The translations under genes were made by a program, and so were the position numbers. From Neelides folsomi (taxonomy: Eukaryota; Arthropoda; Collembola; Neelipleona; Neelidae), in assembly GCA_034687125.1 (NCBI GenBank), contig JAQGBZ010000142.1, positions 62,001 through 126,000 of the forward strand: DNA of 64,000 bases, read 5' to 3'. Shown piece after piece: positions 607 through 46,600 of this stretch; the stretch's first letter is position 1; the number at the start of each line of letters is the position of its first letter. The notes beneath the pieces were generated by a model. The model ran no database searches. It saw nothing but the letters and a program-made list of their open reading frames with translations, and had not been told where the DNA came from.

Positions 607-3600
607 GATCTCGAACTTTCCCGGCTGTCAACTTTCCGCCAGACGGCACATCCTTCACGCAGATCAGCTTAGGAACTCGATTGTCCAACGTGATCGGTTC
701 TTACAGCTACTGGAATATGCAATTCTACCAATCGGAAGGGGCTTATGTCACTTGGGAATTCAGCGTCCCACGTGGAGCCTCCATTGGGTTTTATGCAAGA
801 CGAAACGCTCTTCCTACGCACACTCACTACGACTTCATGGAAATCCTTAGGGGATTCAAAAGCAGACCTACAAGAAGTTCACCGGTAAGTCCGAACTTGA
901 AATCACTTGATTTCATTAAAAAGATGATTAATTAAATTCATTATCTATTATATAAATTTACAGCCTTCAGTGTCAAAGGAAGTTAACAACTTCCTAGAGC
1001 AGGGTCATTGGTTCCTATCTCTATACAATGATGATAGTGATTCCCAAGAAGTCGTTTTCTCTTCCACTGTCTCTGAAGAAATGACTGAAGGATGTCCGAA
1101 CGGTTGTAGCGGAAACGGACAATGTACTCTCGGCCACTGTCAGTGCAATGCGGGTTTTGGAGGCGAAGATTGCAGTCAAAGTGAGTAATTTTGAATGGAA
1201 AACCAATTACTCTTATAATTATTAGTGTTCTGGAGTATCCATATATTAATTTCTGGTTAAATTTACTTAGCAATTGCCAATTAACAATAATTGTAGACAA
1301 AATGAATTTTTGTATATTTAAATCATTTACATAATATTTATACTCCCCACATTCCTTTACATTCCCTTACAATGAGAATGGATCCTTCCTTATTTACAGA
1401 TAGTAAAAATAGTATTAGGGAATGTCCTTGTATGTGTGCGAATCTGACAATATCGAAAGTAGCTGTACTGTATACCATATACCACCATATCTGTACTTAT
1501 GTATAGTATACTTTCAAAAATATGTAGTGAAAGTAAAATTATATCATCGTTACTTGAAGCGACTCGTGTCTGTAGAGTAGTGAAATAAATATCGAGGCGG
1601 ATAGAATGTCCGCTGAAGTTATCGCCGAGTGTAAGGAGAAAATTAAAATGCAATGTTAGAGCGATGCAATTCGCAATTTTGCAACATGAAATGAAATGGG
1701 AATCGGGCTTAATGGTTTGAGAATGTTATTTTATGTGTTTGAGATGGAAGGATAGAAGGGCCAGGGGTATTTTATAGATGAAATTGTCCAGGCTTTCCCT
1801 TTTCCCATTTCCTTCTAAATCCAACCCGAATTCGGGTTCATGGACTCATTCCCTGATAAAAAATAGGAGTAGAATTCAAAGCGCACACATTAAACCCGAA
1901 TCCCATTTCCATTGAGGAGAATGTGGAAAGGTGAGCTCAAAATCCCCTCTTTCGAAAAAATGAGAATGAATTACTTGAGTGAAAATTCTTTATTTCTCCA
2001 TCCAATTAAAAGAGCGGAGTGAGCATGAAGAGAATAATTATTTTCCAGGCGTCTGTCCGGTGCTCTGCAGCGGCCGCGGCGAGTACGTGAACGGAGAATG
2101 CCAATGCAACCCGGGTTGGAAGGGAAAAGAGTGCAGCCTCCGGCACGACGAGTGCGAAGTCTCAGACTGCAATGGACATGGAAAATGTGCGAGCGGGAAG
2201 TGTGCATGCGTCCGTGGATATAAAGGAGACTACTGTCAAGAAGGTAACTCAGCTTTCTCGAAAATCTTAGGAAAAATGAGAAATTATTACACACTTGCCT
2301 TCGGCCTGACTCAGAACCATCCCTTGAATTACAACTACAACAATATAGAGTACATAACAACATAACATTAGGTATGTAATGTACAATTAGATATGTGGGT
2401 ATGTATTTACTCCATGGAGGGCAAAACACAATTGTTCCATTCTTGTTTTTCCATTGATTACATAAAAATTATTTTCATGATATTATTATTATAAAAAAGT
2501 ACGAGTGGTAGAGTAGGACAAAATAGATCGCAAATTACTCTTATACTCCAAACATATACATAGTTAGATATCAGGGGTCGCAGAATCGGTAAAAATTATT
2601 TTTACCGGCTAACTGTAAATGAAAATCGTGTAAACCGGTTAGCCGGAAATTACGACCCCTATTAGATATATATATGTTTAAAAAATTTCATAAGGTGGAT
2701 TTATTCTTTAGGAAATAGACATCTCATTCCAAGTTGAATTGTGAAAAGAAGAAAAAACTCATTTTAGAACAGGGGAAAAATGGAGGAATTTAGTTTTTGG
2801 AGAACTTCGTCAAGGGATTTTCCGAGTGTATCAGAAACATTTGGAGTTGAATGGGAGAACATTTTTCCTCCTTCCTAATGACCTATAACGGCTCTCGGTC
2901 CCCTTCTCGAGAAATCTTGTCCTTATTTTCTTTCTTTCCTCGGAGAGCCATTCCGGATTTATTTTGCATATTTGCATTTGGAGCAATTCCAGTTCCCCTT
3001 CTTGACGACGACGGGGATGGGACAGTTGGAAGAAAACGTTGAGAAATGGTAATACACACAACGCCCTCAAAAATGAGCACCCGAAGAGTCCTTCACTTAT
3101 CTTCATCTGCACACTAAAAATGAGAGCAAATCAGCAAAGCATTCGAGTGAAAGAACAAGGAAAATGAATATTAAAATCACTTAATCGATCGGAAAAGAAT
3201 CGTTCCATAATGGATTGTCACGAATTGGAGCTCGAACATTATTGAATTATTTCTCCCTTTTTTTATTTTCCTTGCTCCAATCATTCTATCGTTCTTATTA
3301 TATTGCAAGTCTGCGTTTATTCTAATCACCATTTTATCGTTATGAAGTTAAAGAACTAAAACACGTTCTTTATTCCCTTTTGCCTTTCCTTTCAGAAATA
3401 ACTATGTGCAAGAAACGATTGACGATGGATAGAATTTAATTTGCTATTAAAAATCTTGGTTTTTTTTATTATTTAATTAAGTTAATATAATTATACATAT
3501 GATATGATCAATAATACAACTAATTGAGAAAATAAATTTAACACTTAACACTATGTAGTATATCGTATACATACATAAAGGATACCCAACGGATATGATT

Positions 3601-6600
3601 TACAACTTACTTACATACAATAGGATTGAATTTAAGATCAATGTTCGATTATGGATTACCCATACATTTTACCCAAGTGGTTTACCAATTGATTTTGATC
3701 AAAATAATTTTATTTTATTGATTAGATTATTAATTGCCCATTTCAATGTCAGTGAAATATTAATAATTATACACAATGTAATATATTTGTTCTCTATTTA
3801 TTATAGTGGATTGTCCTCATCCGAACTGCTCAGGTCATGGCTTTTGTTTTGCTGGGAATTGTATGTGCAAGAAAGGTTGGCGGGGAGTCGAATGTTCGCA
3901 ACCTGATAATGAAGCTCTTCAGTGTTTGCCAGATTGCTCTTCTCATGGCACTTTCAATCTCGAAAGTCAAAATTGCAATTGCGAGCCGAGATGGACTGGT
4001 GAAGATTGCTCTCAAGGTAAGAAATATACAAGAAACATAATAATGAATGCCCAAAATATTCGTCAATATGTAAAAGTGTAGATTATATATGTATTAAAAT
4101 TAATTTGGTATTTTTAGAACTCTGCGATTCCAATTGCGGAGTTAATGGTGTATGCATCAATGGAGGTTGTCAATGTTCTGAAGGGTGGAGTGGAAAGCTC
4201 TGCAACCAACGTGTTTGTGACAAAAGGTGCATGTTTTGAACATCTATATTAATTCTAATTAATTCTACCAAGTTTTAATAATCATTTTAAAATCATAACA
4301 TATCTCTTCTGATCCTCTTTAATTATGCACAGGTGTGCTGATCATGGTCAATGTAAAAACGGAACTTGTCTCTGTGTGACTGGATGGAACGGACGGCACT
4401 GTACTTTGGAGGGATGTCCGGCGAGTTGTAATGGCCATGGCCAATGTAAAGCCAATTACGAGGGATTCTGGGAATGTAAGTGCCACAATGGGTGGACAGG
4501 GCCCGAATGCAGCGTCATGATGGAACAAATCTGCAACGACGGGAAAGATAACGACAAAGGTGAAGAGATTTTTGGTCGAATATTTCTCTGAAATTACTTT
4601 CATGCTTTCTCGTCACAGATGGGTTGGCTGACTGCGAGGATCCTGAGTGCTGCTCGCAGCCACAATGCGAGAAAAGTCAATTGTGTGTCTCGGCCAAGAA
4701 GCCTATTGACATCCTGCTCCGGAAGCAGCCTCCTGCGATCACAGCCTCTTTCTTTGAAAAAATGAAGTTCCTTATTGAGGAAGGAAGTCTTCAATCCTAT
4801 GCTCGCCAAGACGCATTCAACGGAAGGTAAGCGCCAATTTACCATCTTTTTCCCCATCACATATCTAAACTTTCATTATTCTGAATTATTATTATTCAAC
4901 ATTAGGTATATAATAAACACCTAAATACCGTGTATTAATCAATAATATCTTTTAATACAATGCTAGGAACATTATAAAATAATTTTTCATTTGGCAATTG
5001 CAATTGCCCTTTTCTATAAAGATTCAAATCTCTTTATATAATTAGAGGTCCCTTTGGTATTTTTAATAAAATAATTTTTTATCAAATCACTAACAAAGTT
5101 TATGAAGCAAATTTATGCATGATTTCAATTCCAATTTAATGCTAGTTTCATGTGAGCATCTGTGACCCTGTCTTAAAATTCCAATTTACGCCATGTGACT
5201 TACTCTATATGTATGATATATAGTAGTACATCATCCCTATACTTATAACAATACATAATATTTATAAAATAACTTATAAAATAACTATTTACACAATCAA
5301 CTTCGCACTTTTAATAAGCATTCTTGGCTAACTGTGCTTTCTTAATCTGTCTTTTGTGCTGCTTGATTCAAGTGTGTTTTGGAGCCATTTCAACAAGAGG
5401 TAAGCCGAAATTCAAACAAGATTGTTACAAAAGCAAACCTTAATCATTTAAGCAAACCAAATACAAGTACCGTATAATAGTCTATTTAGAATATTTCTAA
5501 ATGTTCATTATGAATATTATTAATTACAATGTCATATGACGTGTTAAATATTTGACTTCCTCTGTCTGTAAATTACCCTTCGTGAAAAATAACCCAAATG
5601 ACCATTTGTTTAAAATATTTGTCACTTTGTTCTTTCTTATTCTTCTCATTCTCTTTTGTGTGTCCATGTCATGTTGAATTTTTTCAATGGTTGTTAGCCT
5701 TTCAATTAAAATGTGCCAAAAAACTAAGAGGGTAAGCAAGCAACCTTACTTACCCTCCCTGCCTCAAGTTAACCTCACAATATTTCAAATGATTTAAAAT
5801 ATGGAACACCTTTAGGTAGTGATAGTTAACTATTTCCTTTGCGTAATCTTGGACTGAAATTCAAATAATTATGTATGAGTAGGACGTATGGAGTGTAAGG
5901 ATCTGTAATCGGTCACATGAGTGACCCTACGACTCCGTATCCAGCCATCGAGAAGGAAATAAATTAATTTGGGATTTGTGTGCAGCCGGAGCGGAGTCGT
6001 GAGAGGCCGTGTGGTGACACCGAATGGAAGTGGATTGATGGGAGTTCGTGTTTCCAGCAGCTCTCCACTCGAACCTCTCGGAGGTTTCACACTCACTCAG
6101 GACGACGGATGGTTTGACCTTATGGTCAATGGAGGAGGAGCCGTGACTCTCCAGTTCGGCAGATCTCCCTTTAATTCTCAAACCCGGACCATTTTCGTAC
6201 CCTGGAACGAGGTGAGTTTTTAGGTTTTCCTCTCCTTCCTACAATCAATTTGCAAATCTACATTTATCTGTATATTATATCAGGTTGTGATTATTGACAC
6301 GGTGATGATGGGAAGTATGGATGATAAAATCTACTCCAATGGCCCTGTATGCGAGTCCCATGACTACGAGACGATGAAACCCGTGGTCCTCGCCACGTGG
6401 AAACACGGGTTCCAAGGAGATTGCTCCGAAACATCCGCTATACTCAAAGAGTCTCAAGTAAGAAATTGGACTATTGTGAGCCGTCGAGGCATAAAGGAAA
6501 GAGGTGATTAGAATTAATAAGGGACTGTTTTTGACAGGTGGTTCAAGAGAGCATCAGAATTCCCGGAACGGGCCTTCACCTCATGTATCACAGCTCAAGG

Positions 6601-9600
6601 GTTTCTGGATATTTGTCCACAATTCAGCTCCAGCTGACCTCAAGCGTTATTCCTTCTTCGCTCAAAAGAATCCATCTTCGTATTGCGATTGAAGGGGTCC
6701 TCTTCGAGAAAACCTTCGAGGCAGACCCCGACATCCGCTTCACCTACCCTTGGAACCGACTCAATGTTTACAGACAAAGAGTCTACGGACTCACGACCGC
6801 CATTGTCAAAATCGGCTACGAGTACGATAACTGCGCCCAAGTGATTTGGGACGTTCAGAGCACTACCCTTTCCGGTCATGACATGGGGATCTCTGAGATC
6901 GGTGGGTGGAACATCGACATCCATCACCGGTACAATTTCCACGAGGGAATCATCCAGAAAGGAGACGGAGCCAACATTTACTTGAAGCACCGCCCACGAG
7001 TCATCATCACAACCATGGGGAACGGGTATCAGCGAGCCTTGGACTGCACTTCAGAGTGTAATGGGGTCGGATCGAAGCAGAAACTCCTCGCCCCTGTTGC
7101 TCTCGCCTCCGCACCTGACTCTTCACTCTTTGTAGGAGATTTTAATCTCATAAGAAGGATTATGGTTGATGGAACGGTCCACAATGTTGTGAAGCTTAAG
7201 TAAGTCTTTTCCCTGTCTGTAGCATGCGTCGTTCGATTCTAAATCTCTTGTCGTTAGTAGTTTTATTACTACTCTAAACAATGTTTATTAAACTTCTATT
7301 TCCAGTGCGACGAGAGTGTCTTACCGGTATCACATGGCTCTTAGCCCAGTCGACAACATCTTGTATATATCAGACCCCGAGTCTCATCAGATCATCAAAG
7401 TGAGGAACATTGAAGACATGACAAATATAGAACAAAACTGGGAATCCGTGGTTGGCTCTGGGGAAAGATGTTTACCTGGTGATGAAGCTCATTGTGGAGA
7501 TGAAGCATTGGCAAGAGATGCAAAGTTGGCTTATCCCAAAGGAGTTGCAATGTCTTCTGATAATGTTCTTTACTTCGCTGATGGAACAAATATTAGAAAA
7601 GTTGACAGAGATGGAATCATCACAACTGTAATTGGAAACCATCAACAGAAGTCACATTGGAAGCCCATTCCATGCGAAGGAACTCTCAAAGTGGAAGAAG
7701 TATGAACATTATAATTAAAAAAAATTTATTTAGTTTATAATTCAATAAGAATTATCAATTGAAAAGGACTTAATATTAAATTTCAATATAGTATAAAGAG
7801 GTTTTACAATATTTAATTTTTTCAATAAGTGGGAAATGGGAAATGAAATAATACAGATAGAAAGCAATTTTTATTGTTGGATTAATTTTTTGTTAAAATA
7901 TTTTTCATAGAATATAAAATGTTCAAAAATCATAAATGATTTGCACACTTACCATTCTGCATATTTTTTATTTACCGATGTTACAAAGAAAAAAACATTT
8001 ATTTATTACTTTCAAATCTCAAAAATCCAATGGTTTAATATCATTTTTTGTATAAAAGCTTTTTAGTCTTCCATATCATATTTATTATTCCACTTAACTT
8101 GATCCCAATTAACTTGAAATAAGAATAAACAAATTTCACATAAAGTAACTTTTACATAGACATATATAAATTGACCTAAGTTATTTATTATATCAAAATT
8201 TACTTTTTAATATTTATGTATTTATTATAATGTCAATAAAATATAAACCCCTATACTAAACATTACATAAAATACTTATATGCGAATTCAATTTTAGGTT
8301 CATTTGAGATGGCCTACAGAGCTGGCTGTGAATCCACTGGACAATTCTCTTTACATCATTGATGATCACATGATTCTCAAATTGACAGACGACAATAGGA
8401 TCAGAATTGTAGCAGGGCGTCCATTCCATTGTCCAATTCCTCCTGGCGGTTACGACGCGGATCTTGCGACACATTCTTCCCTTATCAGTCCCCAAAGTAT
8501 TACATTTGGTTCCAATGGGGACCTCTACGTCGCGGAGTCTGATTCTCAAAGGACGAACAGAATAAGGCTCATCAGCACCAACGGGAAAATATCTCATTTC
8601 GCTGGAGCTGAATCAAAGTGCAACTGTCTTGATCGAGGATGTGCCTGCTTTGAAGATGATCACTATTTGGCTGCTACGGCAAAGATGAATACGATCTCTT
8701 CCATTGCGATGTCTCCTGAAGGAGTTCTCCATGTTAGCGACCAGGGGAACTATAGAATCCGATCAATAATGGCCCTTATACCGCAACAGCAAGGACCGAG
8801 CCAACCCTCTGACCAGTCTAGACAATATGAAATCTTCTCACCCGAAACACAAGAAATTTACGTATTTAACCGATTCGGACAACATGTAGCTACCAAGAAC
8901 ATTGTCACTGGAGAAACCATCTACACGTTTCTCTACAATGTGAACATGTCAAACGGGAAATTGAGTAGTGTGACAGATGCTGCTGGGAATAAAATTCAAA
9001 TCTTGAGAGACTATTCACAACAAGTCAAGACGATCGAAAATGCCCAGGCTCAAAAATTTAACTTAAAGATGTCGAGGGTACGGATGCTCCAGGAGTTTTC
9101 AACTCCTGAGGGCTACAATATTACCTTTGACTATTGGAGCTCAACTGGTCTCATCAAGAGCCGCCAGGACAGTTCTGGCCGAAGTTCGATCTATACTTAT
9201 GATGAGTTTGGGCGTCTTGTTATGGCAGTAAGTCCATCAGGCCAAGTCGTCACGCTCCACTTTGAACTAAGCCAGAAAGGAGCCAATGTGAAAGTTACGA
9301 GAGACACAAACTACCCGGAAAGCATCCTCATCAAAGGATCCACTGTACACAAAAGGATAAGTGAGTCTTGAAAACATTATCGCCTTGTGGCCGATCAATA
9401 ATTATATTATTTGATTTAAAACTCCATTTTCACGATTATGAGGAAAAAACCTATTTAATTTGCAGATAAAATGGAGGAGATCACGTCTGTGCAACCTGAT
9501 GGGAATGTGATTCGAATTTACCCATCCTTCAAAACCGTGACGACGGAAACCGTTCCGTACAATATTCTGAGTGATATAAGTCCCGTGTTGGCGGATAGTT

Positions 9601-12600
9601 TCCCAGTTCCTGGTAAGCAAAAAACCGAGCTCTCTGGTGACCTCCTCAATCGAGTCGAGTGGCGTTACGTTGCAAGAAAAGAAGGAAAGGGAAAAAACAA
9701 ACAAATTGTTCAAGTTGACAAGAAAATGAGGATTAATGGAGAAAACGTACTAATGGTTGAATACGACCGAGAAACTAATTCCGAGTTGATTTTTATTGAT
9801 GATCGAAATCTCGTTCTCAATGTGAGCTATGATCGTTCTGGCCGGTCGTTGAAATGGGAACCAAGGTAATGTCTTTTACCAACTTACATTATTACTCAAA
9901 TTCCATTCACGTAACTATCACGTAAATATACTGGTGATTTTAGCCACGGGTTCTCGACGGTGGATTTGGAATACGATCGCTTTGGCCGACTCATTGGGTG
10001 GAAATGGGACGAACTGAGCGAATCGTACGAATACGACCGTTCAGGGCGATTATTCAAGATCAAGTATGCTGATGGAATTAGTTGGACTCACGTTTTCAAA
10101 GATATTCTCACCACTATGGTATGCGACGCATTAATTCAATCCTTTCCCATCCCAACTTTACTCGAGTTGGTTTTATCCTATTTTAAAATATAATTTAAAA
10201 GTTGTTTGTATTTGAATATGACCCTCTGTTCAATTCCTATATTCTTTTGTTTAGCCGAATAAAATGACCACTGGCGGTGGAAGTGACTATCTTCTTGATT
10301 ACGATGGGGTCGGGGCTTTCCAGTCGCTCACAACTCCCCGCGGGCACATCCACACATTCGGATTTTCCACTTCTATAGGAGTCTACGAATATCAGTACAA
10401 AGCCCCGAGCAGTCGAGACGTGTACAAGATTCAGTACAATGACTTGGGACAAATTGTTTCAATCGTCTACCCGCAAGGCTCCGGTCGCATCAATTACGTG
10501 TACAATAAAGGAGAGAAGTTGGAGGCTTCAGTTGCCGGACTCCGCTCAGCCCAATTCTTCTACCAGGAAAACTCTGGACTTCTCAAAGTGGTCGAAGTGG
10601 CTCAATCGAGCTTCGAGCTTAAAGTTGAGTACAAATACCAGGGTGGATTTGTGAAAGAGTTGAGGGAAAAGTTTGGATCCAAAACTGGACTTGATAACAT
10701 CCACATGAAGTACCAATACGACGGAAATGGGCGAGCGACCAATGTGGAAATTGAAGTGAACGGAAAGGTGAGCCAAGGGCTGACGATGACTAAGAATCAG
10801 AATACGGGGAAGTTGGAAACTTTCCTCGACCTCACATTTGAAGGGAGTCAGAATGGGAAATTCAATAGGTCGACGATTCAAGACTTGTCCAAAGTATTCT
10901 TCCTCGTTAAGGTCAAAGATGGGGTCGGACGCGTGAAAGTCGCGAGCATGAACATCAAAGGAAACGAAGTATTCAAACTTGAAGTCACGTTTGATGCTAA
11001 AGGGAAAGTTAGACACAGGAAAATGAACATTGGTCACTCTGCATATGCCGATAATATTGTTTACGACGACGATGGGCATGTCTCGGAAGTGATTGGGTCT
11101 GGGAATTGGAAGTACGTGTACGACGAGAATGGAAATGCCATTCAAATTGTGGAACAGGGAGAAAAGTCCTCTCTCATCTACGACAGCGGAGACAGGGTGA
11201 TTCAAGTGGGAGAGCTCCTTCGTTACACCTACGACCAAAGGGGGTTCCTTGTCCAAAGGGGAAACGAAAAGTTCCAGTACGACGACAAGGGGCTTCTCAT
11301 CCACGTGGTGAAGAAAGATGCTTACAAGGTGTGGTTCTTTTACGACCACCTCGACCGCCTCACCTCTTGGAAAGACGATCAAGGAAATGTTAGTCAATTC
11401 ATCTATGGGAACCCGGACGCTCCAGATCTCATGACTCACATACATTTCCCGCTAACGGGCAAGAGCACCTTGTTCATCTACGATGGAGAGGAGAGTGGAG
11501 CTTCCCTCGTGGCATTCATCACTTCCGACTCGCAGCGGTTCTACGTCGCGACGGATCAGCACGGATCTCCAATTGGAATTTTCAATGTCCATGGGAGCAT
11601 TGTGAAGGAGATTCACCGAACGCCGTTTGGGAAAATTGTGAGAGACACCAATCAGGAATTTTACCTCCCAATCGACTTTCGAGGGGGAGTAGTTGACAAA
11701 CACACCGGGTTGGTCATTATTCGTGGAAGACCTTACGAACCAACCATCGGTCAATGGATGGTCCCGTCCTGGAACAAACTTCCTTCGGACTTCAAGAGGC
11801 CTACTGACATATTCACATATCGGTTTGCACGGAATGATCCCATCACACCCAGACATGGACTGGCTGAGAGGCGAATGATCTCACTCGACTCTTGGCTCGC
11901 CCTTTATGGATTCGACATGGACAAAATATTCGGGCAAAATTATGTGAAAGGTATTTCGGTGGAGCCGTACATTGGAAAGGGTCATTTGTCACCAGAGTTC
12001 GGAGTCGTGTCTGGCCTCGACTGCATGGCCGCCACCATTTCTTCAAGTTTCAAAAATTTTGGATTCAACAGGGACTCCAAACTGAGTCCCGAAAGTCTTC
12101 TCAATAAAGAGCTTGATTTAATGTCAAAGATTGCCTACAAGAGGACCGCCTTTGGTCCCGGTCTTCTCGTCTCAAGGATGGAGAATGGAAGGGCCCTCGT
12201 GAGCACGGTCGACAATTCAGTCATTCAAGGTGTGATTACTTCTGTCCTCAACGGCACTCTCTTCGTTGATTTCAAGTCCGCTCACTCGAGTAATTTCTAC
12301 TTTGTCAAAGACAACCCCCATAAACTTAGGGACGACATGGAAGAATTGAAGAGGTTGGGAGGCCTCTATAACATTTCAGTCCATGATGCCGAAAATGGAA
12401 TCAAAGTAATGTATTCCTTATATAATTTATAAAACATGTTGATCATTGATATTTATGTACCTGTAGTGCATGTATACGACAATACTAGCTAATACTGGCG
12501 ATGAGTAATATATAGTAAAATCAATTAATCAATTAATCGCCAGATTACCTTACTTAAATTGGGATGAAGTTAAACATAATTTATGGTTATTACTGCATAA

Positions 12601-13008
12601 ATTTTGGTTATTATGGTTATCAGTACATGTTTTAATTATTTCTTATAGGAATTGAAGCTCTCAAGCGGAGAGACAGTCGTTTCCGTTCGGTATGGAGCTG
12701 ACCCAGACGAGGAATATCAAAGACTCGTTAAGCACGCACATCGGCGAGCGATCGAAAGAGCTTGGGAGGAAGAGAAGCATTACATATCTATGGGGCTCGA
12801 CGGGCGACGAGCGTGGACGGACGAAGAAAAGGACCAGCTTCTCTCAAAGGGATTGGTCCACGGCTACAGACCCTCGGACCTCTTCAGCATCCACAAGTTC
12901 CCTCACTTGGCCGATGACCCCAATAATGTCGTGTTTGAGCGAGACTCGAGAAGGAAGAGAAGGAAAAGCAACAAGCGACATCGCGATCGTCTCTCGCCCT
13001 CATCTTAA
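607..13008 (+). CDS. Ten-m: Teneurin (Ten-m/Odz), C-terminal 2357 residues
   Basis: Type II transmembrane adhesion receptor of synapses and axon guidance; the cytoplasmic and membrane parts lie left of the window. Seventeen exons: 607-884, 964-1180, 2049-2243, 3807-4016, 4118-4226, 4333-4559, 4619-4826, 5373-5399, 5986-6211, 6284-6457, 6538-7199, 7306-7699, 8298-9360, 9466-9865, 9944-10118, 10255-12405 and 12649-13008; phases agree and the sum closes in frame. Order: pre-EGF region ([23 protein letters not shown]), eight EGF repeats (exons 2-6), Ig-like/FN-plug segment ([13 protein letters not shown]), NHL propeller from about 7000 ([23 protein letters not shown]-like [12 protein letters not shown]), YD shell (many YDxxGR repeats, 8900-11900), then a C-terminal tox-GHH-like domain ([15 protein letters not shown]). 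It ends in a very basic tail (RRKRRK). EGF2 and EGF5 each lack one cysteine (Tyr and Phe instead), the family hallmark for covalent dimers. Family identity is certain. The gene symbol is the arthropod generic one; which paralogue cannot be told. Confidence 0.97.
2586..2652. repeat. Nested inverted repeats in a teneurin intron
   Basis: CGGTAAAAATTATTTTTACCG (from about 2587) is a palindrome with one central base. It is followed by ccggctaac and, about 30 bp later, by its complement gttagccgg. The surrounding tags cgcagaatcgg and attacgacccc look like the ends of a small foldback element. Confidence 0.55.
5373..5399 (+). other. 27-nt in-frame teneurin microexon
   Basis: A 27-nt exon is framed by a good acceptor (ttgattcaag) and donor (gtaagc). 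It is phase 2 on both sides, as are the preceding donor (4826) and following acceptor (5986). Skipping it therefore removes nine residues around VFWSHFNK without shifting frame. The FNK residues fit the conserved sequence just before the RGRVV strand, so constitutive inclusion is also plausible. Confidence 0.75.
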
Positions 13009-35399: not shown

Positions 35400-36236
35400 A
35401 ATTATTAGAATTTAATAGGGACGCATACCAAGAATCTTTTTTTCGAGTACAAGGCTGTTAGTGAAAATGTTAACCATTTCATTTGTAGTACGAACTTAAA
35501 ATACGTTGTAAAACATTTAACATGCGACTTGGAATGATAAGAATCTTACGATTGTTGACGATTAGAACATTGAGGAATTTATTTCTTGTTTATTTATTTA
35601 AAATGGTCTACCATTTGGGAGAGAAATGTTTAAGGGAAAATACGAGGAGTTGACGATCAATTCGAGGTTAAATGCCCTTTTGACTATTAAACGTCGTAGA
35701 GGCCATATTATCTAATTTGTATTTAACTTCTGTTACATCAATTTATAAAGTTATGGCAATTTATTACAATATTAGTTAATCGTGTTGATCGTAATATATT
35801 CTACTGGTTACATGATTAATTCTACAATAAACTAAAACAACAATCTCACTACGAACATTCTAATGTTAAAGAGAGAACATTTGGCATTGAGATTCCATCG
35901 AAGGGATGAGTTGGGTTAACTATTTATTTACAGTGAGTTAGTTATAGAATTTACGAGCAAATATTTAGTTATTCTTGCTCTCTTGAACTTCTTTGTTCAC
36001 GAGTTCAAGGGCTTTGAATGTTTTTAACACATCAGACTACGAGACTTCTTCCAGTCTCAACTTGGATTCATACGAGAACGGAACTAAATTGGAAACAAGT
36101 AAATAATTAATTATTCATATCTCAATTTATTAATATCAATAGATCTGCAATTATCAGCATTTATTAATAAAAGTATTATTTATATAATCATAATTCTACA
36201 ATTATTATAATTTTCATGATTGTTCCTTTTCCAGTA
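35400..36236 (+). promoter_or_regulatory. 5' flank and probable 5' UTR exon of the gonadulin-like gene
   Basis: No coding sequence is seen between COPB1 and the insulin-like gene at 36237. A donor (acaagtaaat, intron from about 36098) and an acceptor (tttccag, ending at 36234) would remove about 137 nt. The start codon would then lie two bases inside exon 2. The transcribed 5' exon would lie somewhere before 36098. Confidence 0.4.
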
Positions 36237-36786
36237 ATGGGGAATTTAAGTTTAACAATTCTGTCCATGGTGGGAATTTTTGTTTTGATGTGTCCAAGTC
36301 CTTCCACTTCCAACAGCTCGTCTTGTAAAACGAAGCGCCATGAGATTTCACTTTTGGTAACAAAAGCTTGCAAATTTTCCAAACGAAGTTCTTCCTTCCA
36401 CTTCAACGGGGCAAAAAACCAAGAAATCGATGTCAAAAGATTCTTCGACACAATTAACAAATTAGGTTAAATCTGATATAAAATTTTTTTACATATATAT
36501 ATACGAATGTAAATGTAAATTGAACAATTTTTACAACTTGTTTGAATTTGTAGAAGAAGATTATCTCAAGATATTGATGCTAAAAGAAATTTACGAAGAT
36601 CTTGAATATCCTGTTAGTCACATTGTTTTTTATCTTCTTCTTCCACTAAATTTAATGAATATTATTTGATAGACGGAGATGAGAAATCAGCGAGATTCCA
36701 AAAATGGCGAATATGATAAAATTCTCTCACAATGCTGTCTGAATGGATGCACATACTTAGACTTCGTGCCATTTACAAACTGTTAA
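36237..36786 (+). CDS. Insulin/relaxin-superfamily precursor, gonadulin-like
   Basis: Three exons, 36237-36465, 36554-36612 and 36673-36786, join in phases 1 and 0 to give 133 residues. Residues 1-25 form a signal peptide (MGNLSLTILSMVGIFVLMC). A B-chain-like part follows (SSCKTKRHEISLLVTKAC), then KR convertase sites, a long connecting part with an acidic helix (EEDYLKILMLKEIYEDLEYP), and a C-terminal A-chain-like motif QCCLNGCTYLDFVPFTNC that ends exactly at the last cysteine. After the signal peptide there are exactly six cysteines in insulin order. The first intron is phase 1 in the connecting part, as usual for insulin genes. Spacing is unusual: C-x14-C in B (11 is normal) and CC-x3-C-x10-C in A (8 is normal). 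The second insulin-family gene next door supports the reading. Assignment to gonadulin (Dilp8-like, LGR3-type receptor) is inference; a divergent relaxin or a new class is possible. Confidence 0.62.
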
Positions 36787-37676
36787 TTTTAACCATTCAT
36801 AATTTTTCTACAATGCTTATTACTTAAATATTAAAGGTTAAAATTATATTGATACTTTACAACCTTATTCAAATTTAATACAATTTGCAAATTAATACAT
36901 ATTGTATATTTTATACATTAGTTGGTGTATTTATTTACATATTTTGTACAGGTATGCTGACAATTTTAAGACCTTCATCTTTGATTGTTTCTTAACATTA
37001 TTATCATACATCCATGTATATTATAATTATGACAGAGCATGTGTGGCTAGTGTAACAATTAGTATTACACCATATATATTATCTAAATTACCTAATTCAT
37101 TAAAAGGAGAAGTGGAATATTTTTTGATTTTTTTTACTTCTGGAGTCATTGTGCAGTCTATTCAAATACTTGATTAATACTGATTAATATCTTTAAACAT
37201 AATCTAAGTATTATTTTAATATGTATTAATATAAATAATCTAAACACGTATTCTGTATACTTGTGCCATATAATCTCAATTACTATCCATATTCCATATT
37301 TAGTAATAATTTTATTATTTAGGTGGACTATAATACATTTAAACATTTAACATACTTATTTGTTAGTAGAGATGAGACATATTTGTTAGTAGGCGTAGTG
37401 AGAAACCCTTGAGGTTCTCTTTTAAAGTCCCAAAGCTCTATCAAAGGTTTTTTATTTTCCAACTTGAAAAATTCTTAAGGGCCTCAAGGGTTTGATCACA
37501 TTTAAATTTAATTAATAGAATGAATAAAATTTTCTTTTTCTTTTTTTTCTACCTGAGCATGATTGAATAAAATTAATACCTGTAGATGTAAAATCATGGA
37601 AATATTGAAAATATTTAACTTAAATCAGTTAATGGATCTTTTGCTCGGCCAATAAATGGCCATTTGACTTAAAGGA
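36787..37676. other. Intergenic, tail-to-tail between the two insulin-family genes
   Basis: AT-rich sequence with 3' flanks of the convergent genes. One open frame (36902-37177, +) is hydrophobic and low-complexity, with no recognisable domain. I do not call it a gene. Confidence 0.5.
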
Positions 37677-38012
37677 TTATTTCAAGTAAGATCCGTCAAA
37701 AGTTCCTGCCGTGAGTGCAACGACGTCCGGCAGCGGCTGCTCCGTGATGAATTCCATCGTAGAGGCCAATTTTTCTTCAACTTCAGCCGTGTTATAAGCC
37801 ACGTTGTCCAACTTGTCCCGAATTGTCTCGTCCGACGAAGGAGCAACGGATTTTTCCTTTTGAACAAACTGAATTTGGTGAACGTCTCTGGTCTTCTTTC
37901 CGCTCCGCCTCACTCCCGGAGGAGGGAACTGGCTGAGGATCCGAAGCTCCCCGTTAGTGTTATCGCCCCAAAGTCGAAGCAATATAGGAACCAAAGATGC
38001 CCGACGTCGGGC
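37677..38012 (-). CDS. Candidate 3' exon, possible C-terminal extension of the insulin/IGF-like gene
   Basis: An open, well-composed exon on the minus strand runs to a stop at 37677-37679. It has an acceptor at 38012 (ttggttag) and a second AG at 37933 (ggatcctcag). It encodes a basic then acidic tail including RRSGKKTRDVHQIQFVQK, DETIRDKLDNVAYNTAEVEE and ending AGTFDGSYLK. It could be the E-domain-like extension of the insulin/IGF precursor at 40847-40375. That exon ends in phase 2; the 37932 start is phase 2 and joins in frame, whereas the stronger acceptor at 38012 is phase 0 and does not. A separate gene is therefore possible. I recognise no family from the sequence itself. Confidence 0.45.
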   Translation of the reverse strand, partial: ARRRASLVPILLRLWGDNTNGELRILSQFPPPGVRRSGKKTRDVHQIQFVQKEKSVAPSSDETIRDKLDNVAYNTAEVEEKLASTMEFITEQPLPDVVALTAGTFDGSYLK

Positions 38013-38097
38013 CTAACCAATGTTAATCACAAAATCACAATATTAGTTTAATTATTCAAAATATTAATATTTTAATGAGAATAAGGAACAATACTTA

Positions 38098-39124
38098 GTG
38101 GGGGCGTTTAATATTTTCACCTATATTTTTCATTTTTTTAAAAAACCACAAACATTTTTCCCAAGAGTTTTGTTTTGCCATTCCAGCTCACACCCACCCA
38201 CACCATTACTGAACTCGGATGATGTTGTCGGGTTACATTTCTCACTGAGTTGGGAATGTCTTTTCGGGATTTTGCATTAATCATTTTGCTTATTTAAATG
38301 AGCTTCAACATTGAAGATTTTTTCATTTGTGAATAATATATTTTTATATCTTCCTCTTGAAAAGCGTCGGATGAGTTCTGCACATCGAACTTTTCGATTT
38401 TTCTCTTGCTTCTCAGTCAAAAATTGGCAATAACCCATTTTCAATGGTTTTAAACCAAGATCTTTTTTCAATGCCTTGGCCATGGTCCGGGGCGACGTGT
38501 TCATTTGATTCGCCAGTGAGCGACGAGGGTTTCTTTGAATGCAGGCCTTTAAATTTTTAATAAACTTTTGAGTTCAGACCGTTTTTATTCTTTTCTTGGT
38601 CTAAATTCGGCAGTTCCAGTTTCTATGAGTCGCTTAAGAGTTCTATTGACGAACATTCGATTCACACCGTTTCCCTCGAGAAGCTTGAAAATCTCCAACT
38701 TTGACTTTCCTGCCTCAAAGAATGCTTGAATTGCAGCAGCATTTCGCTTTGTGGTAACTCTGGAAACCATGTTTTTTTAATTTTGAATGAAGTTGGCGTA
38801 GTGGGCGGTACAGGACGCTGCGGCTGCGCTGCGCTGCCTTCCCCAAATAAAGGGGGTGGTGAGAGTCGGGGGGGGGGGGGGGGAGAGGAGAAACTATAGC
38901 AAGGTAAAATGTAAAAAAATTGAACGAATTCGTGTTTTTCTCACCATTTTCACTCCGCTTCTTATGCTGAGTGTGAAGAACAGGGGATGAATTTTCCAAA
39001 AAGTTTAATTTTCTTTTAATTGCCATATATCAAGCTTCATTTTGATGTATTACTCTTGGGAAAATTGTTTGTGGTTTTTTTAAAAAAAATGAAAAAAATA
39101 TAGGTAAACATTAAACGCCCCCAC
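38098..39124 (-). mobile_element. Tc1/mariner-superfamily element, internally deleted
   Basis: About 75-bp terminal inverted repeats start GTGGGGGCGTTTAAT at 38098 and end with its complement at 39124, flanked by a TA duplication (38096-38097 and 39125-39126). The element is 1027 bp. Minus-strand coding remains start with a helix-turn-helix part (38770-38585, TTKRNAAAIQAFFEAGKSK) and continue frame-shifted with the region leading to the first catalytic acid (38504-38277, ILFTNEKIFNVEAHLNKQND). Asparagine stands where the family has aspartate, and the rest of the catalytic domain is missing. A run of about 16 G lies near 38868-38883. This copy cannot supply active transposase. Confidence 0.88.
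38277..38770 (-). pseudogene. Truncated Tc1/mariner transposase
   Basis: Two open pieces in different frames, 38770-38585 and 38504-38277, are separated by a break. The first matches the N-terminal DNA-binding helices of Tc1-like transposases (start MVSRVTTKRN). The second matches the segment ending at the first DDE acid (FTNEKIF). The sequence then runs straight into the left inverted repeat, so the second and third catalytic acids have been deleted. Confidence 0.8.
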
Positions 39125-39126
39125 TA

Positions 39127-40352
39127 GGTATTACATATTACAAATCATTGAAATCATCAACGGATAAACTCCAGCATATAAAACAAACAATATGGTACAA
39201 ATTGCAACATGTATTATGTAATTTCTTAGAAATAATGGCAGAAATTGAAAGGCAGTGCATTTGTACAGTAATACATTAATATTGCAAATCTCATGCAGAA
39301 ATGCAAAAATGCATATAGATGTTATAGGTCTGTTAAAAAGTTATTAGTGAAAATTTAATAATGTTAGGGGATAGGCAGTAAAAAGAAATAAATAAGGCAA
39401 TGTCAGCAATGGTTGTTTCCTCTACTATTAAAATATATACTTATGATGAGATTCATGCACTCGATCAAGACAAATTAATATAAACTTTAGGGGGAACATT
39501 TTACATAAAAGGTAATGGTGGTAATATCCAATTAAATAAATCATTGTTCGAATTAAATGACTTGCTTCCCATCGTAAATGCTGTGAAATGGTGAGATTTT
39601 AATTGCGCTTTCATTTTTCTTTCCAATGAGTAATAGAACTTGGTTTTATACGTGAGGAATTCAACTTTATTGAACCAAATCTACCTTTGTCGGTAAAAGG
39701 TGAATCAATGATGAAGTGAATGAACGAGAACAAATGGTGGAAGTTCAAAGGATCCCAAACATTAAATTATGGTCATTTAATATCACTTCATTCATGAGAT
39801 GGAAAAAGAACAACTTTAATGGCTTTCTAATTTCTATTCAACTCATTCATATTATAAAATAATTGCAATTGAATGGAAAACATTTGTGATCAAAATGTAA
39901 AAATAATTTTATGTTTTAAAATCCAAGCAATCTCAAATAAAAATTTTAATAAAATGAAAACGAAAAAGACCTTTTTTGGTCCTTCCAGCTCCACAAAGAA
40001 GAATTGGAGAGAAATTGAAAAAAAACTTTCCGTTTTTCCTTTCTCATCTTTCCTTCTCATTTCGCCCTGCCCCAATTGACAAAAATATGTATAATTAAAA
40101 GCAAATAGAACATTTTTAAAGAACTAATTATGATTAGTTGCCAACAGTTAGAATAGACATTGATTAAAGTTTTTGTATTTGCAACAAGAAGCTCCAGAGG
40201 TTAACAACTTTTAAAATTTTAAACCAAATATCGGTTTTTAATTAAATGGAATCTCACTTGTTTATCTTGTAAGGATGTTAGAGCCGACAGGTTTGAAAAA
40301 TTCCTATGATTGTTTTAATTATTCATTTCAATATAACCATTAAAGATTTTAC
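39127..40352. other. Non-coding stretch, probable intron or 3' flank of the insulin/IGF-like gene
   Basis: AT-rich sequence between the A-chain exon and the transposon. Open frames at 39873-40079 (+) and its antisense are low-complexity. No exon with matching phase and good splice sites was seen. Confidence 0.5.
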
Positions 40353-40847
40353 CTAATTAGTCATTAAAACACACCTGTCCAAATTCCCAGCGCAATATTT
40401 GACCATTTCGGATCTTGAACATGGTTTGAGACAGCATTCCTGAATGAGCCCTCGCGAAATACGCCTTAAAATATTGTTACCTTTCATTTTCCCTCCCCGC
40501 TTTTTGCTAGCTATTCAATTCAATTAAAATTAACAATTATATATTAATTAAATTAATCAATTAAAAATAAACTTAAATTTAATTGCCAAAAGTAATATAA
40601 AATAATCAATCGTTAAAATTAAAATTAAAATTAATAAAAAATACAATCCACCTTTTATCTGTTCAAAACGTTGACTTGTTGAGGAATCGGGTGAGTAAAA
40701 ATTATATTTGCAGAGATGAGTGAGCATTTGGGAAAGCCGATGGCCGCAGATTCGTCTTTCAAATTGACGGTCGATCGGGCGAGTGGAACAATGAAAGACG
40801 AAGATGAGGACAAGAATCAAAAGTCTCATCAATAAAACCCTGTCCAT
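40353..40847 (-). CDS. Insulin/IGF-like peptide precursor
   Basis: Exon 1 (40847-40652) encodes a signal peptide (MDRVLLMRLLILVLIFVFHC) and the B chain RRICGHRLSQMLTHLC, with the canonical C-x11-C. Exon 2 starts at 40510 and joins in phase 1, the conserved insulin intron position. It gives KASKKR, a short connecting peptide, RRISR, then the A chain GLIQECCLKPCSRSEMVKYC with canonical CC-x3-C-x8-C. Convertase sites KKR and RR/SR imply a processed two-chain hormone. After the last cysteine the frame reads AGNLDR and either stops at 40353 (tail CVLMTN) or uses the donor at 40374 (gtgtgt) to join a 3' exon near 37932. A C-terminal extension would make it IGF-like. An acceptor (ttcatag) six bases before the ATG and a donor near 40944 indicate a 5' UTR intron. 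Signalling would be through an insulin-receptor tyrosine kinase. Insulin family is certain; the subclass is not. Confidence 0.88.
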
Positions 40848-43625: not shown

Positions 43626-46600
43626 TTACTGGTACGGGTAGTGGGGATAAGCAAGGAGATAAGACGACCCGCAAATCGTCTGCGGCATATTGACATGATG
43701 CTGAATGGGCGAAAGTCCATGAGTGGTCAAATGGAGATTCCCTGGGTCGTTGGGATGAAGTCCATGAGAAAGGACATGGTGTTGATGGTGGTGAGTCATC
43801 CCTTGGCAAATCCCCCCAGTTTGGATTAAATGTGCCGGTGGGGCCGGGACGTGAATGGGAGGCGTGGGTGGGTGGGGACTGGGGAGTATGGCGTGGGCCA
43901 TCGGCGGGGTCGAAGGACTTCCCATGAATTGTGTAAGATGAACAGCAGAGGAATTGGCAGTTTCGGGCATTTCTTCTTTCGAGTCACTTGACCTTTCACT
44001 TTCGCCCTCATCGCACAAACTGTGCTTTTTTAAATGTTTCTTCAGGGCTTGTTTCCTCGCAAATTCCTTTTTGCACTCCGGACACACGAACTTGCCCTTT
44101 TCGGAAAATTGTGGTTTGTTGGACTCGAGCGGGACATTGTTGAGCGGCGGGGGCGGGAGGTCAATTTCTATTGCTGCCCCTGGGTGGAACTTTTTAATAT
44201 GGGCCTTGAGGCTTTGTCGTTGGATGAAATATTTAGTGCACAATGGACAAAGAAGAGTTTGGCCAAGGGCTTTGGCTTCTTCGTGTCTTGACATGTGCTT
44301 TTCCAATCTATCCTTCCCCGTGACAAACCGAAGACATTCCGGACATTGGTGTTTATTCCCCATCCCATGGAGCTTCACATGCTGTTTGAGAATGTCCGGT
44401 CTCAAGAATTGCTTTTGACACATTGGGCAATTGTGAATTTCCTCACTTCCGTGAGACTTCAAATGATCGCTCAATTTATCCCGTCTGGAGAAACGCTTTT
44501 GGCAAATGTCACAAGAGAACATTTTCTCTTCGGAGTGGACGTACATATGGCGCATGAGCTTGTCCTTTCGTGCAAATCTTTTCCCGCATTTTTCACATTG
44601 GGAAGTTCGCTCGGAAGTGTGGGAAATTTTGTGATTTAAAAGCCGTCGTTCGACAGTGAAACCTTTCCCGCAGATATTACAAGCGAAAGGTTTTTTCCCA
44701 CCTTTTTTAAATGGTATTTCTTCCTTTTCGAATTCTTCCTCATCGTCTTCTCCAGGGGAACAATCGGGGTTATTTTCAGGAGATTCACTCGAGCCATCTT
44801 CGTCCTCTTCGTACTCGTCGTCTTCGGAGAGATCGTCTGCATCGGAATTGTCAGTTTTCATCCCTCGTCGTTTCTCCTCTGAGTCTTCAGGAGGATTTTC
44901 TTTATTGCCTTTCAATTCCTCTTCTTCGCTTTCTTTTTTCCTTCCTTTCCCGCCTTTACGTTCTTTTAGTGCCTTCTTGCAAGAATGCTTGGAGAGGTTT
45001 ATGTGATCGCCAAACTGTAGGTCGCATCGCTCACACCTGAACGGATTCCCACTCGAATGACTTTTGTCCAAGTGGGATGTGAGGAAGTGTTTGACATTAA
45101 ATGTCTTTGAGCAATGGTCGACCGGACAAGTCCATTTCTTCTTCTTGGCAGGGAATTTCTTTTCTGGTTCCTTTTTGACAAATGGTTCGATGTAGATGCT
45201 CTGAACGGAATCTTCTTCGCTCATTCCTTCGATCATCTCTCGAACCGAGTTTTGAATTTCTTTCCCATCGGACATTGAGCATTCGTGGTGAGATTCCATT
45301 TGATCATTGGTAATGTAGTCTTGGGAGCAATCTCCTTGCGAGCAATCCTTTGCCTTTGACCCTTCGTCATAATCCACGACCTGCTGTTGATGTTGTTGGT
45401 GTGTGAGTTTGAGATTCATAATTTGACAACATGAGTCTCCTTGGTTTTGGTTAGAATTCCTCCATGTGGCTTCTCCTTCCTCGTTTTCCTCTCCAGTCTT
45501 GAGCTCTTCTTCAGATTCGAAATCATCCAACCAACAGTCGGCGTCTGGGTGATTGTGGTCAGGAACTTTGTGTGAAGGTCCCAAGGGTTCAATTTCAATG
45601 TGATTCCCTTGCTTGGATTGGGAGTGGTTTGGCGGTAAGTAAGTCATTTGCATAGTTTTGTCTTCTTCAATGATTCGGATTTTCGAAGGCGGGGGATCTA
45701 GCCAAAAGAGAATTTTACTCAATTATTCCAAATTATACATTTATTGAATATTTAATTTAATATGATTTAAACTTAATATGAAATTATTAAATGGATTATT
45801 AAATAATTATAATTACCAGTCATATTATTAGGCTGGATTGGATGAGCCTCTTCTGGATAAAGTTCCACAATGATAAAATCCTCAAAGGTGAATAGAACAG
45901 CTTTCATCGTATGTCTGTGATTATCTTTATGACCCAAATGAGTTTCGTGTGGAGATTTGAGTCTGCAGACAGCACAGCCTGTCAATTGCCCCTTCTGGGG
46001 TGGAATTCCCCCACATGAAAACTCGTTGTTGGTCATGTTATTCCCATGGCCGTTGTCGGTCCATTGCTTCAAATGAAAGACGATCCGATTCTCAAAGTAC
46101 ATTTTCCCGTATACGGAAAGGCCGGAATTTGGGTCGTTGTTGCAGCCGTCATGGACAACTTCGTTCCTTGGAGGTTCCCCTTGAAACTCTTCCATTGGAG
46201 AAATGTTAATCGGAAGGATTGGGAGCATGATGGGAATTTGGGAATGGAGATGGACGCGAGGGTTCAAAGGCCCCTTTTGACATTGGTCATTGATGGACAT
46301 GATCGTTGGGCCTCGTTGTTCAAGACCTTCTCCGCCCAGCTGTTGCTGTTGACAATCAACCAATGGGGCTGAAATTGGAATTGAATGGCCCATTCCTGAC
46401 AAGTCTTCTTCTTCTTCTTCACTTCCTTCTTCTGACTCTTCAAGAACTGAAACCATTAAGAAACCATTCCAATTAATTTTTACCAATTTCAAATTAATTT
46501 TTCATTAACTTTAAGTTATTCCCTTTTAATTGTATTTTATACTGATCATTTTAAAATGTATTTAATTAATTTAAAATGTAAATTATAATTTAATTTATCA

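Follow-up and report, generated by a model that had tools for sequence, protein, structure and literature searches.

Which hormone, if any, is encoded by the three short exons at positions 36237-36786 (forward strand) of the springtail DNA analysed here as the window (the whole stretch, 64,000 nucleotides)? The sequence-only reading had proposed either a hormone of the gonadulin type or a new class of the insulin superfamily. The question reaches beyond this locus, as the rapid divergence of gonadulins hides them from sequence search, and whole-genome Pfam screening omitted this candidate as well. Among the open-access papers searched, none deals in springtails with LGR3, gonadulin, insulin-like peptides or insulin-like growth factor. 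The window covers bases 62001-126000 of contig C142 in a 75-Mb assembly. The cox1 protein of this assembly marks the animal as a springtail: among the 120 matches listed, the best named ones come from Collembola (78-82% identity), with insects behind them (75-78%), and the protein of one further contig reaches 93%. Elsewhere, the window holds a teneurin gene (1979-13005), the product of which has EGF, FN-plug and NHL domains and a C-terminal GHH domain, and a gene for a C2H2 zinc-finger protein (43629-45719).

The structure of the candidate was recomputed from translation and splice ends. Exon 1 (36237-36465, + strand, 229 nt) encodes a signal-peptide-like start (residues 1-25, called by eye and a hydrophobicity rule only), a B-like region C30-x14-C45 and the beginning of a C domain, and it ends in phase 1. 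Intron 1 (36466-36553, +, 88 nt, phase 1, TAG/GTTAAA ... TTTGTAG) is followed by exon 2 (36554-36612, +), which covers the middle of the C domain and has no cysteine, and by intron 2 (36613-36672, +, 60 nt, phase 0, CCT/GTTAGT ... TTGATAG), the retention of which introduces an in-frame stop in the frame translation. Exon 3 (36673-36786, +) completes the C domain with R-N-Q-R and continues with the A-like chain KILSQCCLNGCTYLDFVPFTNC and the stop. The spliced product has 133 aa plus the stop, with a frame that remains intact over 402 nt across two compatible introns. All exon coordinates, phases and the reading frame of the sequence-only reading match this splicing (GT...AG in both introns), and retranslation agrees with its claim of a phase-1 first intron, which, like that of insulin genes, falls within the C domain. 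Such a phase-1 intron is characteristic of all insulin genes (PMC8286064), and the neighbouring insulin-family gene has an intron of the same phase. Upstream, the sequence offers an in-frame ATG as a possible alternative start (36216-36236, +) and a pyrimidine-rich AG, ending at 36234 (+), as a possible end of a 5' UTR intron; 3' of the stop, ATTAAA (36830-36835, +) is a possible polyadenylation signal.

Seven cysteines are present in the product (residues 19, 30, 45, 117, 118, 122, and 133), with C19 lying inside the signal-peptide-like start. The six past the signal region are spaced C-x14-C and then CC-x3-C-x10-C, C133 being the final residue; our recount reproduces the earlier description of six cysteines in insulin order, with this spacing and a cysteine as last residue. 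A gonadulin is expected to combine a signal-peptide-like start with six cysteines in insulin order, and both are found here. The tetrapeptide KTKR is encoded at 36327-36338, between both cysteines of the B region, where cleavage would split the B chain.

Signals of coding and splicing were compared with the surroundings. GC content changes stepwise at the exon edges (0.38 in exons 1 and 3, 0.27 in exon 2, 0.18 and 0.23 in the introns, 0.28 and 0.22 in the flanks). The introns lie near the length range (62-123 nt) seen in a neighbouring gene with the Pfam Adaptin_N domain, which we take to be beta-COP. Both candidate donors have T at +3, a base absent from that position in all six traced introns of the same gene, and are off-consensus. 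Codon usage is neutral, speaking neither for nor against coding: the candidate scores -0.03 bits per codon, the neighbouring insulin-family gene 0.12 and 34 coding segments at least 0.21, with noncoding open runs at a median of -0.40 and a 90th percentile of 0.26.

In order to estimate how often such a structure arises by chance, 2506 windows of 64 kb were simulated with an order-2 Markov model using the window's own trinucleotide statistics. The terminal motif (CC-x3-C-x7..11-C-x0..6-stop) occurred 89 times in these 2506 windows, and the full precursor grammar (signal peptide, C-x9..15-C, one or two GT-AG introns, exactly six cysteines) did not occur in any of them. In 203,332 other bases of the same genome, the single occurrence of the terminal motif was at an insulin gene in L018, the two-exon gene L002 described below, and the full grammar was not encountered. 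Since this grammar was composed after the case was known, and its scan of the window returned a different splicing of the candidate locus, independent tests are more useful.

The insulin-likeness of the peptide was assessed with Pfam and with the positions of the hydrophobic core. Against the spliced candidate, the Pfam Insulin model PF00049 reaches 15.1 bits (E 0.046, residues 74-124), below the curated cut-off of 23 bits, so by that rule the product is not classed as a member; two unrelated Pfam families do slightly better, with 15.8 and 15.2 bits. When the candidate was shuffled with signal peptide and all cysteines fixed, none of 20 shuffles matched Pfam Insulin, and some matched unrelated families. 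The six buried positions of insulin used here are B11, B15, A2, A3, A16, and A19. Anchoring the B region on its second cysteine (C45) and the A region on its third, these positions correspond to I37, V41, I113, L114, F127, and F130, all six of them hydrophobic; taking the best of four anchorings, 0.3% of 200,000 permutations do as well. With I37 and V41 at B11 and B15, three extra residues separate the first B cysteine from the helix, and with F127 and F130 at A16 and A19, two extra residues fall ahead of the last cysteine. This suggests that the additions sit at the helix ends, and that the peptide would retain the insulin core with a change of register in both interchain bridges.

A word-based search among 5.8 billion proteins returned no homologue of the spliced precursor (five proteins shared words, none scored), a PDB search gave no insulin or relaxin at E 10 or better, and NCBIfam gave no match. 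The precursor found a single copy in its own genome, namely itself, and the whole-genome scan with Pfam Insulin at E 10 (three candidates past the first filter) reported three loci without the candidate.

One of these three loci is the gene next door. On the opposite strand, its exon 1 (40652-40847, -) encodes a signal-peptide-like start and a B chain with C-x11-C, followed by a phase-1 intron of 141 nt; exon 2 (40375-40510, -) encodes an A chain with CC-x3-C-x8-C and ends at the donor CAG/GTGTGT in phase 2. The probable last exon (37677-38012, -) is an open frame for a C-terminal extension ending MEFITEQPLPDVVALTAGTFDGSYLK-stop; an acceptor at 37932 fits the frame, while a start at 38012 would require a further exon. 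Spliced, the neighbour scores 42.2 bits with PF00049, and its best PDB match is insulin (E 3.4e-5). Inside its presumed last intron lies an element of about 1 kb (38090-39132), whose inverted terminal repeats are 56 nt long and complementary at 86% of positions; it contains a frame-broken stretch that has no clear Pfam match and that we take, by its resemblance, for the start of a mariner/Tc1-type transposase.

Two more genes served for comparison. L002 (G000:C258:77418-80498) is a two-exon insulin-like gene with canonical spacing, scoring 34.6 bits with PF00049 when spliced. L003 (G000:C330:9157-12363, 1420-1985), an insulin-family gene in which a single exon encodes both the B and the A chain and which has a C-terminal extension, is probably an aIGF paralogue. 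The extension of the neighbour resembles that of L003 with a score of 65, reached by none of 20,000 shuffles, and in L003, by our reading, the extension is likewise separated from the A chain by a phase-2 intron. Within the neighbour's product, GTFDGSY is close to the GTVxPx(F/Y) of the literature, from which it differs at V and P. Given that a C-terminal extension in extra exons is the mark of arthropod IGF (PMC7357564), the L003-like extension indicates that the neighbour is probably an aIGF.

The stop codons of the neighbour and the candidate are 890 bases apart, with the genes on opposite strands, tail to tail. Scanned over its whole length of 149,788 bases, contig C142 has the motif CC-x3..4-C-x7..11-C at two places, one in each of these two genes. 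A tail-to-tail arrangement of gonadulin and aIGF genes has been published, and their adjacency is described for two spiders in PMC7357564. Adjacency, tail to tail, to an aIGF gene is thus found here too, the neighbour being a probable aIGF. As the neighbour is an insulin-family gene in this orientation with a probable aIGF-type extension, the context favours a gonadulin, and we regard this arrangement, with a probable aIGF 0.9 kb away, as the strongest evidence for that reading.

If the candidate is a gonadulin, a receptor of the LGR3 type may be expected, since all gonadulin-bearing species are reported to have LGR3 (PMC7357564 and PMC8220825). The first receptor found, on contig C234, is of the LGR4 type: among the best 120 of 163 receptors it shares at most 54% identity with crustacean and chelicerate relaxin receptors and 47-50% with most mollusc relaxin receptors, and LGR3 is stated to be absent from molluscs (PMC11863921). 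In trees of 63 and 45 rows it groups with the receptors of Folsomia and Allacma. This receptor had been counted as evidence against a gonadulin, an argument that was dropped once an LGR3-like receptor emerged on contig C163. There, a Capitella receptor query gave a weak match (E 9.3e-6) that proved to be a second receptor (about 97206-92313, - strand), with LDLa at its 5' side, leucine-rich repeats and seven transmembrane helices. We also note a receptor on C127 that, by its look, we presume to be an LGR of the bursicon type.

The best PDB match of the C163 receptor is human RXFP1 (E 5.7e-30). LGR3-type genes are marked by a phase-1 intron in TM2, the lack of an intron after TM7 and a phase-1 intron in TM5 (PMC11863921). 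The C163 gene has the TM2 phase-1 intron and, by our reading, no intron after TM7; in the gene model its TM5 intron is in phase 2, as opposed to phase 1 in the LGR3 genes of the same paper. Receptor trees of 63, 45, 33, and 29 rows were built from sequences hand-picked for taxon spread among the best 120 of 163 receptors, together with springtail sequences and, in all but the 63-row tree, human RXFP1. The C163 receptor groups with RXFP1 and the Capitella receptor with support of 91/86 (33 rows) and 74/80 (29 rows); in the 29-row tree, neither a place beside the springtail LGR4 clade nor one beside GRL101 is rejected (p-AU 0.219 and 0.218, respectively). Its branch, 4.4-5.4 changes per site, is that of a very fast-evolving sequence, and in the 45-row tree, from which it was left out, RXFP1 falls weakly (87/61) on the lophotrochozoan side. 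With its best tree position beside human RXFP1, the C163 receptor is probably an LGR3 orthologue.

Taken together, we propose, with a probability of about 0.72, that the product of the three exons is a gonadulin of springtails, one that likely corresponds to Dilp8 of Drosophila: a secreted hormone of insulin fold that would act through an LGR3-type receptor and not through the insulin receptor kinase. Of the two possibilities raised by the sequence-only reading, the gonadulin type is supported by the tail-to-tail probable aIGF, the phase-1 intron in the C domain and the LGR3-like receptor, and a new class is not needed.

Other origins of the locus can be weighed against the same evidence. The candidate might be no gonadulin but a local duplicate of the insulin-family gene next to it, one that has diverged fast and continues to act on the insulin receptor kinase. 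Adjacency and the shared phase-1 intron would fit such an origin, and insulin-family genes of cockroach and termite have been duplicated locally (PMC10148640); however, the two genes lie on opposite strands, in the tail-to-tail order published for gonadulin and aIGF, the candidate lacks a C-terminal extension and has a further intron, in phase 0, and the neighbour matches PDB insulins while the candidate matches none, so that we consider a local copy unlikely. Another possibility is that no hormone is made at all, the open frames having come together by chance or the gene having decayed to a pseudogene. The neutral codon usage, the off-consensus donors, the missing homologue and the dibasic site inside the B region would be in keeping with this, as would the gonadulin pseudogenes of the termites Macrotermes and Reticulitermes (PMC10148640). 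Against it stand the intact 402-nt frame with its two compatible introns, the lack of a full-grammar hit in all 2506 simulations, the GC steps at the exon edges, the core-position and Pfam-shuffle controls, and the position beside an insulin-family gene, which together leave this explanation improbable.

We give still less credence to a diverged ligand of the dilp7/relaxin type acting on the LGR4-type receptor of C234. In its favour, the genome does have that receptor, and no dilp7-type gene was found by the A-chain motif across contig C142 or read among the three Pfam insulin loci. Arthropod relaxins are, however, the best conserved of these peptides (PMC7357564), and a word-based search found no relative of the candidate; in addition, Dilp7 orthologues have an extra phase-2 intron (described for ambulacrarians in PMC8286064), as opposed to phases 1 and 0 here.

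For the preferred reading as a gonadulin, the following course of maturation and action can be proposed. The signal peptide (residues 1-25) would be removed, and three bridges of the insulin type would form by analogy (C30-C118, C45-C133, and C117-C122). KFSKR50, DVKR68, and R100-N-Q-R103 may be the cleavage sites for furin-like or dibasic convertases. Release would probably take place from the gonad, as it does in other arthropods, and the peptide would act on the divergent LDLa-LRR-7TM receptor of C163. The KTKR within the B region counts against this scheme and is a real difficulty, as a cut B chain would consist of two pieces held by bridges. A more specific version, which we put forward only tentatively and hold to be less than an even bet, is a gonadulin with a new register of both interchain disulfides, where an insertion of three residues that carries the KTKR site precedes the B helix and one of two residues precedes the last A cysteine, with the core kept, an unusually fast-evolving LGR3-type receptor and, possibly, a cut inside the B chain.

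Should the gonadulin reading be true, the gonadulin-aIGF gene pair would extend to springtails, its gene order would find what sequence cannot, and the locus would be a natural test of how far the cysteine spacing of insulin can move with fold and receptor use retained. If the re-registered version holds as well, this would be an insulin-fold hormone freed from the canonical cysteine spacing.

Compared with known systems, the candidate resembles arthropod relaxin/Dilp7 in its insulin cysteine order, and it would use a related LDLa-LRR-7TM receptor, but relaxins are well conserved in both chains and have the extra phase-2 intron (in ambulacrarians), neither of which applies here. With the aIGF-like genes (the neighbour and L003) it has the insulin cysteine order in common, and with the neighbour also the phase-1 intron in the C domain; these genes combine the canonical x11 / x3 / x8 spacing, a C-terminal extension and a Pfam score above the cut-off, whereas the candidate lacks all three. 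Relative to the x11 and x8 of the neighbour, L002 and L003, its spacing is increased by three residues in the B region and by two before the last cysteine. The closest likeness is to the gonadulins (Drosophila Dilp8 and its arthropod orthologues, Veenstra 2020). PMC7357564 gives gonadulins a "typical location" of the six cysteines, in words and not in numbers; the candidate has the cysteine order, with the enlarged spacing just described. The candidate, a probable springtail gonadulin with altered cysteine register, has in common with them a secreted six-cysteine precursor of insulin order and poorly conserved sequence, a tail-to-tail aIGF-like gene and an LGR3-like receptor in the same genome.
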